Of a stretch of DNA of 64,000 bases, positions 1 through 64,000 are shown piece by piece. The position numbers and the translations under genes are program-made. Position 1 is the stretch's first letter. Every line of letters starts with the position of its first letter. A model generated the notes under the pieces. It was not told where the DNA came from and searched no databases. It saw only the letters and a program-made list of their open reading frames with translations. The stretch is taken from assembly GCF_000336775.1 (NCBI RefSeq), contig NZ_AOLJ01000011.1, positions 222,078 through 286,077 on the forward strand, in the 5' to 3' direction. This stretch comes from Haloferax gibbonsii ATCC 33959. Its GTDB lineage: Archaea > Halobacteriota > Halobacteria > Halobacteriales > Haloferacaceae.

Positions 1-16
1 GTAGTTTTCAGGAGAA

Positions 17-57266: not shown

Positions 57267-58217
57267 ATGGACATCGACACGGCCAGCGAGACGTGCACCG
57301 AGGTGCTCGACGCCATCTCGGAGGCCGTCATCGCCGACCGAGCCTTCCTCGAAACCGTCCTGACGGGCGTCCTCGCCCGCGGCCACGTCCTCCTCGAAGA
57401 CGTCCCGGGAACCGGAAAGACACTCACCGCGCGGAGCGTCGCCACCGCGCTCGGACTGTCGTTTTCCCGCGTGCAGTTCACCCCGGACCTGCTTCCCGCC
57501 GACGTGACCGGGACGAACATCTACGACGAACGCGAGCGGACCTTCGAGTTCTCGCCGGGTCCCATCTTCGCGAACGTCGTCCTCGCCGACGAGATAAACC
57601 GCGCGCCGCCGAAGACGCAGGCCGCGCTCCTCGAAGCGATGGAAGAGGGACAGGTGACCGTCGACGGCGAGACCCACCAGCTCCCGAGGCCCTTCTTCGT
57701 CATCGCCACGCAGAACCCCGTCGAACAGGAGGGGACGTTCACCCTCCCCGAAGCGCAGGTCGACCGGTTCGTCGTGAAGTCGGCCATCGGCTACCCCGAC
57801 CTCGACGGCGAGGTCGAACTCCTCCACCGGCGCGCCGGCCGGAGCGAACAGAGCCCGAGCGTCGAACGCGTCCTCGACCGCGACACCGTCGCCGCCATCC
57901 GCCGCGCGCCCGAGTCGGTCCGCGTCGAGGACGACCTGCTCGAATACATGGCGAGACTCGCGCGGGAGACGCGCACCGACCGCCGAGTCCGCATCGGCGT
58001 CTCGCCCCGCGGGACCCAACGGCTGTTCGAGGCGACCCGCGCCCGCGCCGTCATCGAGGGCCGCGCGTTCGTCACGCCCGACGACGTGAAACGCGTCTCG
58101 CAGTCCGTGCTCGCCCACCGGCTCGTTTTGACCCCGGACGCACGGGTCGAGGACGTGCGGAAATCGGACGTCGTCGACGACGTGCTCGGCCGGGTGACCG
58201 TGCCGACGCTGGAGTGA
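57267..58217 (+). CDS. MoxR family AAA+ ATPase
   Basis: 316 aa. Walker A is LEDVPGTGKTLTA (about residues 43-55), Walker B is VVLADEINRAPPKTQ (about 108), sensor 1 is FFVIATQNPVEQEGTF, and the C-terminal lid carries GVSPRGTQRL. MoxR ATPases act as chaperones that insert metal or cofactors into, or activate, partner proteins with VWA domains, including DUF58 proteins. The DUF58 operon is next door but on the opposite strand, converging on this gene. Confidence 0.93.
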   Translation: MDIDTASETCTEVLDAISEAVIADRAFLETVLTGVLARGHVLLEDVPGTGKTLTARSVATALGLSFSRVQFTPDLLPADVTGTNIYDERERTFEFSPGPIFANVVLADEINRAPPKTQAALLEAMEEGQVTVDGETHQLPRPFFVIATQNPVEQEGTFTLPEAQVDRFVVKSAIGYPDLDGEVELLHRRAGRSEQSPSVERVLDRDTVAAIRRAPESVRVEDDLLEYMARLARETRTDRRVRIGVSPRGTQRLFEATRARAVIEGRAFVTPDDVKRVSQSVLAHRLVLTPDARVEDVRKSDVVDDVLGRVTVPTLE

Positions 58218-58244
58218 GTGGGAGCCGTGCGGCGGACACGCCGC

Positions 58245-58751
58245 TCAGCGCGTGACGACCGTCACGAGCGCGACCACCCCGACCAGCAGTAAGACGACGG
58301 CCGTGATGGGCTGGCCCCCGGCGGCCGCCCGGTCCGCGCCGTAGACGACCGCTGCCCCGACCGCGAGCACGACGAGCGTCGCCGCCGCGTGGACGAGTTC
58401 GAGCCGGAGCGTGTCGGTCTCGCGGCCGAGGTGTTCGCCGACGGACCGCGCGTTCTCCGCGATGTCCCACGCGAGTATCGAGCCGAGCGCGGCGAGGAGG
58501 AGCGCCTCCGTTCCGGCCCCGCTCGCGCCCGCGAAGAGAAGCGAGAGGAAGAACAGCCCGCCCGCGGCGTCGACGATGCGCCGCGAGCCCCGGAACAGCC
58601 CGGCGGCGAGCGCGACCGTCGCGACGAGGCCGCCGACCGCCGCGGTCGACGTGGTGAAGCCGAGCGTGAACGTCGTGAGCCCGGCGACTGACAGCGCCAT
58701 CGCGGTCCCCGTCCGGGTCGGCTTGCGGGTGATTTCGCTCACCGCGACCAC
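58245..58751 (-). CDS. Membrane protein at end of DUF58 operon (DUF7519-like)
   Basis: 168 aa with five or six hydrophobic helices rich in Ala/Val/Leu. It overlaps the DUF58 gene by 13 bp at its start. Proteins of this kind (I believe DUF7519) close the haloarchaeal MoxR-DUF58 locus. The function is unknown, and it is presumably a partner in the same envelope-associated complex. Confidence 0.75.
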   Translation of the reverse strand: MVAVSEITRKPTRTGTAMALSVAGLTTFTLGFTTSTAAVGGLVATVALAAGLFRGSRRIVDAAGGLFFLSLLFAGASGAGTEALLLAALGSILAWDIAENARSVGEHLGRETDTLRLELVHAAATLVVLAVGAAVVYGADRAAAGGQPITAVVLLLVGVVALVTVVTR

Positions 58752-60007
58752 CCCGCTTCGGCCCGCGCGAGCGCGACGCCGAGCGGTTCGTCACCCCAGT
58801 CGAGGACGCGGACGCCGCTCCGCCGGAGTTCGCGGAGCCGCAGGTCGCGCTCGATGCGCGCGAGTCGCGCGCCGATGGTCGCGGTCGTCGTCGGGTCGGG
58901 CGAGACGACCGTCACGGCGTGGCCGTAGGCCTCCAAGCGGCGGGCGACCGACACGCCGTAGTCGTCCACGAGCGGCGAGCAGAAGATGACCTGCGCGTCG
59001 CTGGCGAGCCGACGCCGGAGTCGGCGGACGGCGACGGAGGGGAAAAAGGCCCCGTCCGGCGGCGTCGGCGCGAACGCCGGGTGGGTCGCGAACAGCCGAC
59101 GGGCGCGGGCGCGGTGGTCGGCGCCCGACGAGGGGGCGAGCCAGCACTCGTCGGGCCCGAACGCCGCGACGCCGACGCTGTCGCCGCTGTCGAGGAGCGC
59201 CGAGAAGGCGACGCTCGCGGCGTCGACGGAGCGCTCGACCGCGGTCTCCGCCTCGTCGTCGGGGGCGACGTGCGCCTCCGGGCGGGTGTCGACGACGAGG
59301 ACGACGGCCGCGGCGCGCTCTTCTCTGAACTCCACCGTGGCGAGTTCGCCCGTGCGGGCGCGCCGGTTCCAGTCGATGCGCCGAATCGGGTCGCCGTGGC
59401 GGTACTCGCGGATGGAGGCGAACTCCAGTCCCGACCCCGGCACGTCGGTCTCGACGCGGCCGGCGTACTTCGAGGTGAGGCCGCGAAGCGGCAGGTCGGC
59501 GGTCGCGGCGAGTTCGGGTTCACACCGGAGCGTCGTCTCGGCGCTGACCGTCTCGCGGGACTCGACGGCCCCGCTCGGGTCGCGGACGACGACGACCGTC
59601 TCCTCCCACGCGTGCTCGCCGCGGACGGCCGTGACCGTATAGGTCGCCGTCGCGGTCGCCCCCGGCCTGAGCGCCGTCCCCAGTCGGGCGGGGCCGTCGG
59701 CGACGCCGAGCGCCGGCGGGACGCCGTCGACGACCCGGATGTCGAAAAGCGTCCGCGACCCCTCGTTGGTGACGCGGAGCGTGACCTCGACCTCGTCGTC
59801 GGGGTCGGGCGTCGCGTCCGAGAGGTCGCGCTCGACGCGAAGCGACACCTCGGGAATCGCCGCGACCCGGACGTAGCCGAGCACGACGACGCCGAGGCCG
59901 GCCGCGAGGAGCAGCGACGCCTCGCGGGTGAACACGCCCGCGCCGGCCGCGGCGAGAACGAGGCCGTCGAGACCGGTCCAGCGTTCGGTGTCGAACCCGC
60001 GGCTCAT
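58739..60007 (-). CDS. DUF58 domain protein
   Basis: 422 aa. Two short hydrophobic stretches are near the N-terminus (12-48). A CARDB/DUF11-like beta domain follows (70-160), then the DUF58 motif YRHGDPIRRIDWNRRARTGEL at about 205-225 and a VWA-like region with VVLVVDTRPE. It is typically activated by a MoxR ATPase. It overlaps the upstream DUF7269-like gene by 4 bp and the downstream membrane gene by 13 bp, so this is a tight operon. Confidence 0.9.
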   Translation of the reverse strand: MSRGFDTERWTGLDGLVLAAAGAGVFTREASLLLAAGLGVVVLGYVRVAAIPEVSLRVERDLSDATPDPDDEVEVTLRVTNEGSRTLFDIRVVDGVPPALGVADGPARLGTALRPGATATATYTVTAVRGEHAWEETVVVVRDPSGAVESRETVSAETTLRCEPELAATADLPLRGLTSKYAGRVETDVPGSGLEFASIREYRHGDPIRRIDWNRRARTGELATVEFREERAAAVVLVVDTRPEAHVAPDDEAETAVERSVDAASVAFSALLDSGDSVGVAAFGPDECWLAPSSGADHRARARRLFATHPAFAPTPPDGAFFPSVAVRRLRRRLASDAQVIFCSPLVDDYGVSVARRLEAYGHAVTVVSPDPTTTATIGARLARIERDLRLRELRRSGVRVLDWGDEPLGVALARAEAGWSR

Positions 60008-60576
60008 CGGCGCTCACCCGCGGGACCGTCGTCAGTGCCGATTCGCTCTATCGCGGCGACGGTTCGCCCGGCGCGGTCGGTGAGCGACGACTGTCCAGAC
60101 AGGAAGAGCCGGACGCGCTGTCGGAGCGGAATCGAAACGGACGCGCCGAGAAAGCGCGCGGCGACCGGGTCGTCGGTCCAGCCGCCGGTGTCGAGGAGCG
60201 CGGCCGCTTCCTCGGGGGCGCGGCCGTCGCGGGCGACGAGGGCCTGTGTCGCCCGCGCTTCGAGTCGGTCGACGACTCGCTTGCGGGCGGCCCAGTGGGT
60301 GTGTCGACCCATCGCCGACACGAGGTCGTCGTCGAAGTCGGAGCCGGGTATCGGGACCGCGACTCTCGCCTCCGGGTCGCCGGTGACCGTGGTGTTCATC
60401 GGGGTTTCGCGGCGGCGCTGGACGTACCGAAGCCCCTGAAGCGCCGCGAGCGCCGCGACGAGACCGAGGAAGATGTCCGTCAGTTCGAGGCCGAGCGAGA
60501 CGCCGGCGACGACCGCGAAGCCCGCGGCCGTGGCGACGACGCCGACGAGCAAGAACAGCCGACGCGCGAGCGTCAT
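60004..60576 (-). CDS. Membrane-anchored protein of the DUF58 operon (DUF7269-like)
   Basis: 190 aa. Two hydrophobic helices at about 5-25 and 28-48 are followed by a soluble charged domain of about 135 residues (ETPMNTTVTGDPEARVAVPI onward). ATG 60576 (MTLARRLFLLVGVV) overlaps the stop of the DUF4129 gene by 4 bp. The family name is from memory (DUF7269) and the role is unknown. Confidence 0.75.
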   Translation of the reverse strand: MTLARRLFLLVGVVATAAGFAVVAGVSLGLELTDIFLGLVAALAALQGLRYVQRRRETPMNTTVTGDPEARVAVPIPGSDFDDDLVSAMGRHTHWAARKRVVDRLEARATQALVARDGRAPEEAAALLDTGGWTDDPVAARFLGASVSIPLRQRVRLFLSGQSSLTDRAGRTVAAIERIGTDDGPAGERR

Positions 60577-61565
60577 CGGTCGTCCCCCGTCGCGTCGGCG
60601 TAGGTGGCTTCGATGTTCCTGAGCGCGTCGACCGCGCGGCGCTCGCGCTCCGGCGTCGCCTCGAAGCCGCCGTAGCGGACTTCCTCGAACAGCGTCGTCA
60701 GGTCGCCCACGTCGTCGCGGTCCATGCCCGCGTCGACGGCGGAATCCGCGAACTCGGCCGGCGTCGCGGCGCGGCGGTTCGGTACGTCGAGGAGCGCCGT
60801 CATCTCTCCCCACGCGCGGAACACTTCGTTTTCCACGTCGGCGTCACCGTCTTCGATGCGCTGGGCCGCGGCCCCGGCGGCCCGCCCGACGGCGGCGACG
60901 TTCGGTCCCTCCTCCTCGGCAGCCGGGTCGATTTCGTCGTCGGCCTCGGGCGAGTCGCTGGTCCCGGTGACGAGCAGGAAGACCGCGACGACGAGCGCGA
61001 CCCCCAACAGGAGGCCGAACAGGAGTGTCGGCGGCGAGACGGCCTGTGCCGCGCCGCCGTCGCCGAGACTGCCGCCGCCGCCGGCGGGGAGAAACGACAC
61101 GTTGCGCGCGGCGGCCGCGGCGCGAGACGAAAACGAGAACTCGCGGCGACACGCCGTGAGGAGGGCGAACAGGAGAACGACCGGCGGGCCGAGCGCCACG
61201 AAGATGGCGAGCGGCGGGAGCAACGAGCCGGTCTCTCGGTAGGCGTACGCGCCGAGGAGGACGAAGACGAGGGCGACCCCGGCGAGGATTCCGGGTGAGA
61301 GCAGCCACGGGAGACACGGCGTCGGGATGCTAAGGCCGTCGAACGACCCGCCGGTCGGTTGCACGCCGGTCTCGTCTGTGTCACCAGCGACTGCGCCCCC
61401 GGTCTCGCCGCCACCGAAGCCGACTGGACCGCCGTCGCTGACGACGGTCGAATCGATGGTGGCGGCGACGACCGAGAGGGCGACGACCGCGAGGAGGGCG
61501 AGCGCGAGTGCGCGGAGGGCGGAACGGTCCACGATGGTAGGTAACAGTATGCGGGGTAAAGACAT
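60573..61565 (-). CDS. DUF4129 domain membrane protein
   Basis: 330 aa. The first helix is ALALALLAVVALSVVAAT, further helices lie at about 85-110, 115-140 and 165-190, and the C-terminal DUF4129 domain has EVFRAWGEMTALLDVPNRRA and DLTTLFEEVRYGGFEATPER. DUF4129 proteins are often found with transglutaminase, DUF58 and MoxR genes. It is the first gene of the operon. ATG 61565 is used; a GTG about 11 codons later is possible. The open frame further upstream is origin DNA. Confidence 0.85.
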   Translation of the reverse strand: MSLPRILLPTIVDRSALRALALALLAVVALSVVAATIDSTVVSDGGPVGFGGGETGGAVAGDTDETGVQPTGGSFDGLSIPTPCLPWLLSPGILAGVALVFVLLGAYAYRETGSLLPPLAIFVALGPPVVLLFALLTACRREFSFSSRAAAAARNVSFLPAGGGGSLGDGGAAQAVSPPTLLFGLLLGVALVVAVFLLVTGTSDSPEADDEIDPAAEEEGPNVAAVGRAAGAAAQRIEDGDADVENEVFRAWGEMTALLDVPNRRAATPAEFADSAVDAGMDRDDVGDLTTLFEEVRYGGFEATPERERRAVDALRNIEATYADATGDDR

Positions 61566-62253
61566 TTCGAGGGACGGGGCGGTCGTCGGGACGTGAGCGA
61601 CGTCGTGTCGGCATCCGTTCGGACCGAACGGTGGCCGCGCCTCCCGTGCCGGATGACCGTCCGAACAGACCACCCGTGCAAGTGAACCAGCCGCGGGTAC
61701 GGCGGACGAACGCCGAGGCACGACACCCACACACCACGTTTGCAAGTGAATTGGCGGTGGGAAGGAGGGGCTGGGGAGACACACAGACACCACCGTTGCA
61801 CGTGAAGCGTGGTAACGCCGAGAGGGGGTGGCATCGGCGGGCACTCGGAGAGAGCACGGGTGCAAGTGAACCTCGGTCGCGACTCGAACGTCGTCACCCA
61901 CCACCGTTGCAGGTGGCTTCTCCCGAACTGGACCGTTTACGGGCCGTTCACGACAGAAACGTTTGACTACAAACTGCACCGCGGGCACCGAGACATGTCA
62001 ACGCTTTAGTTGAACTCGCGCTCTGTTGTTCTACTAGCTACTCTCGTATCCTCCTATTCACTTGCAAAAGTGGTGTGTGTCTGTTCAAACGAGTTCACAC
62101 GAACCACGGTATGCGGTACCGAGGGTCAGTTAGAAGGCGACGATTCCGACCCGAACACGCCGCCCATCACCCGACGACACCGCCGCCGCAATTCACATGA
62201 ATCAGATGAAATCGGGGTTTTAAATAAGGGGACGCCACAACGGACCGACGCTA
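61566..62253. other. Putative chromosomal replication origin (oriC2-like)
   Basis: This 688-bp gene-free region lies between the DUF4129 operon (reading away) and orc1/cdc6. It contains an ORB-like repeat array (next entry), G-rich tracts beside several repeats (GGAAGGAGGGGCTGGGG after 61755, AGAGGGGGTGG near 61821) and a clearly less GC-rich core at about 61935-62058 that could be the unwinding element. Repeats left of the core point right and the one right of it points left. Close to orc is the TATA sequence GGTTTTAAATAAGG (about 62216-62229), about 25-38 bp before the ATG. The structure matches haloarchaeal origins, which sit beside their cognate orc gene. Confidence 0.82.
61676..62069. 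repeat. Origin-recognition-box-like repeats (5 direct, 1 inverted)
   Basis: Core TTGCAAGTGAA-type copies: GTGCAAGTGAA 61676-61686; TTTGCAAGTGAA 61739-61750; GTTGCACGTGAA 61796-61806; GGTGCAAGTGAA 61859-61870; degenerate GTTGCAGGTGG 61906-61916. An inverted copy, TTCACTTGCAAAA, is at 62057-62069. Several are preceded by a shared CA-rich flank (ACACACCACG, ACAGACACCACC, and on the inverted copy CAGACACACACCAC), so the full unit is about 20-25 bp. The core loosely resembles the archaeal mini-ORB TTCCAGTGGAAA but is a distinct variant. Confidence 0.78.
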
Positions 62254-63480
62254 ATGCGCCGGTTCGAGCGAAAACAAAACGTCTTCACCAACAAGGACGC
62301 CCTCGGGGAGTCCTACAAGCCCGAGCGCATCGAGGAGCGCGACGACGAGATTTCGGAGTACATGGACGCGCTCCAACCGGTCGTCGACGGCTGGGAGCCG
62401 AACAACGTCTTCCTGTACGGAAACACCGGCGTGGGGAAGACCGCGGTCACCGAGTTCCTCCTCGAGATGCTCCTCGAAGACGTCTCGCAGTACGACGACG
62501 TCGACCTCAGCGTCATCTCCATCAACTGCAAGACCCTCAACTCCTCGTACCAGGTGGCGGTCGAACTCGTCAACGAGCTTCGGCCACCGGGCGCGGAGAT
62601 TAGCTCGACCGGCTACCCCCAACAGACCGTCTTCAAGAAGCTGTTTCAGGAGTTGGACGACGTGGGCGGAACGGTTCTCATCGTCCTCGACGAGGTGGAC
62701 TCCATCGGCGACCGCGACGAACTCCTCTACGAACTCCCGCGGGCGCGTTCGAACGGCAAGCTCGAAGACGCCAAGGTCGGCCTCATCGGCATCTCGAACG
62801 ACTTCAAGTTCCACGACCAGCTCGACCCGCGCGTGCAGGACACCCTCTGCGAGCGCGAACTGCACTTCCCGCCGTACCAAGCGCCCGAACTGCAGAACAT
62901 CCTCGAATCGCGGGCTGAGGTCGCCATCGCCGAGGACGCCTGCGAGGAGGGCGTGCTCAACCTCTGTGCGGCGCTCGCCGCCCGCGACAGCGGGAGCGCG
63001 AGACAGGCGCTCGACCTCCTCCGACTGGCCGGCGAACACGCCGAGAACAAAGACGACGAGCGAATCACGCTCGACCACGTCGACATCGCCCGGCAGAAAC
63101 TCGAACAGGAACGCGTCGTCGAGGGGATGCGCGAACTCACCGAAAACGGTCACTTCGCGCTCCTCGCGGTCGTCTCGAAGGCCGCCCACGACGAGACGCC
63201 GTGTCGGATGCGCGACCTCTATCAGGAGTACCTCCGGCTGTGCAACTCCGCCGGCATCGACCCGCTCGCCCAGCGGTCGGTCCACAACCACCTCTCTGAC
63301 CTCCGGATGCTCGGCATCCTCTCGGCCGAGGAGAACCGCACCGGCTCGCGCGGGAACTACTACAGCTACGCGCTCGACGTCCCCTTCGCCAGCGCGATGG
63401 AAGCGCTCTCGGACGTGCTCGCTCTCGACTCCGTCCTCGACGAGATTCGGAAGACTGCGAAACAGGCCGAGGCAGTCTGA
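62254..63480 (+). CDS. orc: Orc1/Cdc6 family replication initiator
   Basis: 408 aa. The AAA+ domain has Walker A GNTGVGKT (residues 56-63) and Walker B LDEVD (145-149), then ISNDFKFHDQLDPRVQDTL (sensor/ISM region) and SGSARQALDLLRLAGEHAE (sensor 2). The C-terminal winged helix ends about residue 385 (QRSVHNHLSDLRMLGIL). It binds origin repeats and loads MCM. From the surrounding gene order I suspect it is the counterpart of H. volcanii orc5, the oriC2 initiator. The start is at MRRFERKQNVF, with a TATA box 25-38 bp upstream. Confidence 0.94.
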   Translation: MRRFERKQNVFTNKDALGESYKPERIEERDDEISEYMDALQPVVDGWEPNNVFLYGNTGVGKTAVTEFLLEMLLEDVSQYDDVDLSVISINCKTLNSSYQVAVELVNELRPPGAEISSTGYPQQTVFKKLFQELDDVGGTVLIVLDEVDSIGDRDELLYELPRARSNGKLEDAKVGLIGISNDFKFHDQLDPRVQDTLCERELHFPPYQAPELQNILESRAEVAIAEDACEEGVLNLCAALAARDSGSARQALDLLRLAGEHAENKDDERITLDHVDIARQKLEQERVVEGMRELTENGHFALLAVVSKAAHDETPCRMRDLYQEYLRLCNSAGIDPLAQRSVHNHLSDLRMLGILSAEENRTGSRGNYYSYALDVPFASAMEALSDVLALDSVLDEIRKTAKQAEAV

Positions 63481-63597
63481 ACCCCACCGGACGCCGCGGC
63501 CTCCCGAGACCTTTTTCTGAGGCGTGCTGTTCTGAGACGCGACACGCCATTCTCAGACGGTGGTAGTTTCTTAGTGTGCCAGTGAGACGTGAGTAGC

Positions 63598-64000
63598 ATG
63601 ACGAATCTCTCGCCACGACTCTCTACGGGTATCTCCGGACTCGATACAGTGCTGGACGGTGGGCTACTGCCGAACCGGACGTACATGGTCCGTGGAGCGT
63701 CCGGGGCGGGAAAGACTATCGTCGGCTACCACTTCCTGTCCGCCGGGGTCGAACGCGGCGAAGACGTGCTTTTCATCTCCTTCGAAGAGTCCGCGGCCGA
63801 CCTCCGAGCGAACGCCGAGACGCTCGGGTTCGACCTCGCCGCGGTGCCGATTCTCGACCTGAGCCCGTCGCCCGAGGCGTTCCTCGACGACGAGGCGTAC
63901 ACGATGCTGTCGCCGAGCGAGGTCGAAGGGAAATCGACGACGGCCGAACTGAAAGCGGCAATCGAGGAACGTGAACCCGACAGGGTGGTCATCGACCCGC
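63598..64000 (+). CDS. KaiC-like RecA-superfamily ATPase (3' end outside window)
   Basis: 134 residues visible. RLSTGISGLDTVLDGGLLPN is the KaiC/RadA-like start, Walker A is VRGASGAGKTIVG (about residues 32-44), and FISFEESAADLRANAETLG is a typical KaiC-like segment; a Walker B-type VVIDP lies at the very edge. These archaeal KaiC-like proteins often act in signal transduction, not clocks. The gene follows orc by 117 bp and is cut by the window end, so domain number is unknown. Confidence 0.85.
   Translation, partial: MTNLSPRLSTGISGLDTVLDGGLLPNRTYMVRGASGAGKTIVGYHFLSAGVERGEDVLFISFEESAADLRANAETLGFDLAAVPILDLSPSPEAFLDDEAYTMLSPSEVEGKSTTAELKAAIEEREPDRVVIDP

Follow-up and report, generated by a model that had tools for sequence, protein, structure and literature searches.

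In haloarchaea, ORBs are family-specific and carry a G-string (available sections of Wu et al., 2012; PMC3528665). The same sections assign orc2 of Haloferax volcanii to the oriCa family and mention earlier work that had not proven the orc2 origin of this species to be functional. According to the accessible text of two other papers, Orc2 (HVO_0634) is paired with oriC3, one of three active chromosomal origins of H. volcanii (PMC7776575), and a replication peak occurs at oriC3 in this organism (PMC6063281). For Haloarcula hispanica, available portions of the literature describe G-strings of oriC1 that are essential for autonomous replication (PMC3936714) and a box cluster, oriC2D, that was proposed to titrate Cdc6E (PMC3936714; PMC4010727).

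Origin boxes and initiator gene at the orc2 locus

The window, i.e., the whole 64-kb stretch of DNA that was analysed, is part of C11, one of the 30 contigs of this 4.06-Mb genome. An orc1/cdc6 initiator gene, Haloferax orc2, is located at 62254-63480 on the + strand (TIGR02928, 452 bits; PF22703; PF09079). Its product contains Cdc6 lid and winged-helix domains, and its best solved relatives are the Cdc6 homologs 2qby and 2v1u. A sequence-only reading had pointed out six ORB-type repeats upstream of this gene, five of them direct and one inverted, and these were confirmed at 61668-62075. When up to 3 mismatches were allowed, CACCACNNTTGCAAGTGAA had 6 matches in the window, all within this interval, five on the + and one on the - strand; the mean in shuffled sequences was 0.04, and 6 matches were reached in 0 of 100 shuffles. 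The same search yielded no box downstream of orc2 within the window.

The direct copies (+) are found at 61668-61686 (2 mismatches to CACCACNNTTGCAAGTGAA; CA-rich flank and core), 61732-61750 (0 mismatches), 61788-61806 (1 mismatch), 61852-61870 (3 mismatches), and 61899-61917 (3 mismatches), with start-to-start distances of 64, 56, 64, and 47 nt. The fifth copy (TTGCAGGTGGC) is degenerate, and its counterpart is better kept in 11 named Haloferax loci, all 11 of which retain five direct boxes and one inverted box. The inverted sixth copy (62057-62075, -; 0 mismatches) has its G-rich side towards orc2. Four of the six exact occurrences of the 10-mer TGCAAGTGAA in the genome lie at the origin. 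These ORBs, one of them inverted, in intergenic DNA adjoining an orc1/cdc6 gene very probably belong to a replication origin. Other gene-free gaps in the window were listed by a crude gene caller, and at least the largest of these was an artefact, because it contains a peptidase-like reading frame. Genes for a MoxR-type ATPase, a DUF58 protein, and a DUF4129 protein occupy one side of the origin (57267-61538), and a KaiC-like gene follows orc2 (63589-63999).

An AT-richer core flanked by ORBs was also found, to a moderate degree: the stretch at 61918-62056, a candidate unwinding region, has 48% AT, versus a window mean of 32%. Locally, AT rises to 58% in the 60-nt windows that begin at 62026-62030, a value exceeded in 71 of 63,940 such windows, and this peak overlaps the inverted ORB copy.

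Primers published for orc2/oriC3 of H. volcanii (PMC6063281) were aligned to the locus. MHorc2F2 aligned at 62242-62270 with 6 of 29 positions mismatched and its last 21 nt identical, and MHorc2R2 at 61551-61577 with 5 of 27 mismatched, one of these within the last 18 nt; in both primers, the half that carries the engineered restriction site holds most of the mismatches. The two primers thus mark the edges of the intergenic region. Three other orc2/oriC3 primers from that paper gave no convincing match within the window (8-9 mismatches). Orc2 was 96-100% identical to the products of orc genes at the 11 named Haloferax loci, so that the identity of at least 80% used as the oriCa threshold by Wu et al. 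was established against these loci rather than against H. volcanii Orc2. From these sequence comparisons, the locus is in all likelihood the chromosomal origin oriC3-orc2 of Haloferax (oriCa family), and its agreement with oriC3-orc2 supports the proposal of an origin adjoining its cognate orc. This origin is already known and ordinary; only the proposed self-control elements around it, described below, are candidates for something new.

Two expectations on the repeats themselves had to be revised. Their CA-rich flank is present and had been considered unusual; the other strand reads GTGGTGTGTG after TTCACTTGCA, as directly seen in the inverted copy. This flank is the known haloarchaeal G-string (available sections of PMC3528665). 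The direct copies have similar G-rich ends on their other strand, with a weaker one in copy 4 (GTGCTCTCTCC). Nor was a distinctive ORB variant supported: the core, TTCACTTGCAA, differs little from TTCCACTTGAAAC, which looks canonical and occurs once upstream of another orc in the genome, and the same box type is present beside Orc2 orthologs in other haloarchaeal genera. At E <= 1e-150, a class-wide sample of 391 genomes from 86 genera contained Orc2 orthologs in 73 genomes and 25 genera, and a family-wide sample of 170 genomes contained them in 36; the two samples overlap, and the present genome belongs to both. Relatives in other genera showed 58-84% identity, mostly just under the 80% threshold. 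With orthologs in 25 sampled genera and the same box type beside them outside Haloferax, initiator and repeat are not a private pair. Their family-specific pairing was supported, family-specific ORBs being already on record in PMC3528665 as far as its available sections show.

In eight non-Haloferax genomes, 51 of 57 matches to CACCACNNNTDCAAGTGAA (<=1 mismatch) were within 1 kb of orc2. Such clustering at orc2 was observed in 8/8 of these relatives, and the reversed pattern gave no matches. Seven of these eight genomes have boxes on both sides of orc2, and the downstream clusters (e.g., G067:C2:6141-6263) recall oriC2D of H. hispanica. The two most distant of 78 orthologs (L111 and L112; 58-60% identity) have a related G-rich box instead of the ORB core. 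A paralogous orc with 41% identity (L004; G000:C18:108989-110152) has upstream ORBs with a similar core, AACACTTGCAAAACGGTGTG, and finer discrimination between Orc2 and this paralog may therefore be needed.

A remote box cluster without an orc gene

The repeat had been expected to cluster only at the origin. Its strong matches did so, apart from one orc-less cluster elsewhere that is conserved in the genus. A genome-wide ORB search returned one other paired Orc2-type site, at C11:163351-163369 and 163375-163393, and a third, weaker box was found on reading (L115:1547-1565). Together, these three direct boxes form a cluster at G000:C11:163351-163439 (L115:1477-1565), outside the window, between a TRAM-domain gene and a radical-SAM/HHH gene. 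The corresponding site was located in all 15 Haloferax genomes, and a box scan detected at least two boxes there in 13 of them and one in G025 and G026. In the seven genomes with cluster and orc2 on one contig (G000, G027, G029, G031, G032, G033, and G036), they are about 112-141 kb apart. As in datA, a cluster of initiator boxes is thus situated away from both the origin and the initiator gene. No report of this cluster was found in the literature searched, of which coverage was partial, so it may have been published before. A single ORB-like site, CTCCACTCCTGCAAGTGAA, lies far from orc2 in two genomes of one other genus (G062:C5:147080-147098; G063:C4:186310-186328) and may be another remote Orc2 site.

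The cluster could be what is left of a former origin or of a duplicated oriC3 array, with no function today. This reading, which we regard as possible, is favoured by the flanks of its first and third boxes, which resemble those of oriC3 copies 1 and 4 (ACAGACCAC and GAGAGAGCAC), and by the lack of an orc gene in the stretch read around it. In an alignment of the 15 genomes, however, the three boxes are recognisable as aligned positions, diverged in some rows, within intergenic DNA that otherwise aligns poorly; that these positions are kept in 15/15 genomes suggests selection on the cluster. Titration of Orc2 by these boxes, judged from their sequence and conservation, is a conceivable function that we propose with reserve.

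Phased arrays in orc promoters

Between the inverted ORB and the start codon of orc2, the + strand reads TTCACATGA ATCAGATGA AATCGGGG TTTTAAATAA (62192-62227). The first two elements (62192-62209) are 9-bp units that resemble the ORB core, a promoter array identified from the sequence and its orthologs; the others (62210-62227) are a G-rich stretch and a TATA-like box. A genome-wide search for the array motif TTCANNTGANTCANNTGA (<=1 mismatch) gave a single further site, with one mismatch. Arrays of other genera commonly read TTCACTTGA AACAGATGT AGGGGTGG TTTTATA, and some have three 9-bp units. A consensus composed from the same ortholog data, after these had been viewed, scored at least 17/18 in 75 of 78 Orc2 orthologs. 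The best match started at -56 to -69 from the start codon in 75 of 78, and both properties were combined in 73 of 78. In L078, L080, and L112, the best match was elsewhere, and an array-like stretch was still visible before the TATA-like box. Sites resembling the initiator's box are thus present at the orc2 promoter, here and in orthologs. No report of such promoter arrays was found in the literature searched, coverage of which was partial, so earlier publication is possible; in searches with sequence strings, all of the matches listed were seemingly unrelated.

Array-like sequences were also found before orc genes of other families. They read CAGCGGACA CTCCGGACA CTGCGGACA GGGGTGGTTTTATG in L190, GCTTCGGAC GCTTCGGAA GCGGTGGTTTTATG in L172, CTCACTTGA CACACTTGA CTCACTTGA CACAGTTCA CACAGTGGTTATTTATA in L229, and CTCCCGAAA CAGCCGAAA CTCCAGAAC in L158, and these four share the array design despite quite different ORBs. 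In a swap test, a 9-mer from -80 to -38 was scored when it had at least 4 near copies in the distal region of its own orc. This was the case for 45 of 107 orc genes, versus 8% when distal regions of other families were used. Three control windows gave 23, 18, and 27 of 107, and the background of the test is therefore not small. From 150 orc matches, 109 entered the test, and two of these were removed because their upstream DNA was too short, which gave the 107. Excluded beforehand were L184, whose frame was not set, and L238, which had no start; the other left-out matches were mostly a group that begins at about profile position 100 and has unclear starts.

Periodicity was analysed over 12 lags in the region from -90 to -38. 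The set comprised 182 regions in 34 clusters, after removal of three rows that duplicated the Orc2 set, and exclusion of the 20-member cluster L244 from the cluster counts left 33 orc clusters. The mean score was 8.8 at lag 9, versus 6.0-6.9 at the other 11 lags, and lag 9 was the top lag in 17 of 33 clusters (ties counted). Base shuffling gave p <= 0.05 for 8/33 clusters at lag 9 and, at any of the remaining lags, for 0 or 1/33. Four control windows had lag-9 means of 6.9-7.4, and lag 9 ranked first there in 6, 7, 3, and 6 of 33 clusters. As many orc clusters were without a 9-bp signal, the array design is recurrent rather than universal. Upstream of the orc genes L239, L241, and L242, which represent another orc family, tandem repeats of the TTCATTTCGAC type, with a spacing other than 9 bp, extend nearly to the start codon.

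These observations bear on what the array is. Its core and orientation are those of the inverted ORB, in many non-Haloferax orthologs it follows a full inverted ORB at a short distance, and in compact origins it occupies the same window as full boxes, all of which would fit one more diverged origin box instead of a promoter operator. We consider this reading rather unlikely. The position of the array follows the TATA-like box and the start codon (-56 to -69 in 75/78 best matches), whereas that of the full inverted ORB varies from about -85 (L066) to -339 (L033). In addition, relative to a full ORB, the G-rich end of the array is shifted by one 9-bp unit and reaches into the TATA-like box, and comparable 9-bp arrays are found before orc genes whose ORBs differ. 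The recurrence of lag-9 phasing across orc families and a G(N)GGTGG-TTTTAT end common to several orc promoters would also be compatible with binding of an unrelated transcription factor shared by these promoters. This explanation is improbable, as there is no single motif common to all, the unit of each family being similar to its own ORB, and the motif of the Orc2 array hardly occurs elsewhere in the genome. CdrS was set aside as owner of the array, because no orc target is named, and 'orc' does not occur, in the available text of PMC8406309.

A box tried as specific to orc promoters, GTGGTTTTAT, was rejected: it recurs in some of them and is no marker. Of its five matches in this genome, three precede orc genes and the other two are inside reading frames. 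In 39 genomes, 89 matches were counted, versus 37 for a reversed control (summed by hand). Only two of 30 loci examined (about one per genome) had an orc directly downstream, as called with a profile built from five orcs of this genome, and in the 24 genomes common to the box and orc searches, 11 of 59 matches were just upstream of an orc (compared by eye).

Since the array unit resembles each family's ORB, the cognate Orc would be its simplest binder, and autoregulation by Orc2 through the promoter array is the interpretation that we favour by a modest degree. Repression would be somewhat likelier than activation, because the array touches the BRE/TATA region.

Proposed control of Orc2 and comparison with known systems

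By analogy with other archaeal origins, Orc2 would bind the ORBs with its winged helix on the core and its AAA+ part on the G-string, and ORB-bound Orc2 would recruit MCM. That boxes and orc2 are kept in this strain while the origin normally does not fire is highly improbable: dormant haloarchaeal origins with intact boxes have been reported (available text of PMC4595724) and the fifth direct copy is degenerate here, but oriC3-orc2 is conserved across 15 Haloferax genomes and activity of oriC3 was reported in H. volcanii (PMC6063281; PMC7776575; both as available). Orc2 may also regulate its own gene by binding the 9-bp-phased core array next to the TATA-like box of orc2, and the distant orc-less box cluster may titrate the protein. 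In its general form, the proposal is that many haloarchaeal orc families tune, and probably repress, themselves via a 9-bp array of their own ORB core that is joined by a G-rich end to a TATA-like box, and that oriC3 adds a remote, Orc2-titrating cluster; this combined model is plausible and is put forward tentatively.

Such promoter arrays matter because initiator control in multi-origin archaeal cells is largely open. An array unit matched to its family's ORB would allow a direct test of initiator autoregulation in a genetic model, and arrays of this kind could be part of the reason why numerous orc families exist side by side without cross-talk. For long-range titration, the remote cluster offers a specific candidate that can be deleted.

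The closest described system, oriC3-orc2 of H. volcanii, has the same initiator family and inverted, family-specific ORBs upstream of orc2, and comparison via primers and published descriptions revealed no difference in kind. For the remote cluster, the nearest precedent is oriC2-cdc6E with oriC2D of H. hispanica, which likewise has extra cognate boxes outside the origin. However, oriC2D adjoins cdc6E and has 11 boxes, whereas the Haloferax cluster, 112-141 kb away in seven genomes, has about three. The dnaA/datA system of Escherichia coli, as cited in the available portion of PMC3936714, similarly combines initiator sites at the initiator's own promoter with a distant cluster. In contrast to E. 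coli dnaA, the present locus involves an archaeal Orc, a TBP-TFB promoter, and a 9-bp-phased array of ORB cores, with autoregulation only inferred. Sulfolobus Orc1-2, as described in the accessible part of PMC9738581, likewise belongs to the archaeal Orc1-type proteins and binds the promoter of its own gene. It is, however, a non-initiator acting through a hexanucleotide damage-response motif, whereas the array units described here resemble the initiator's own origin box.
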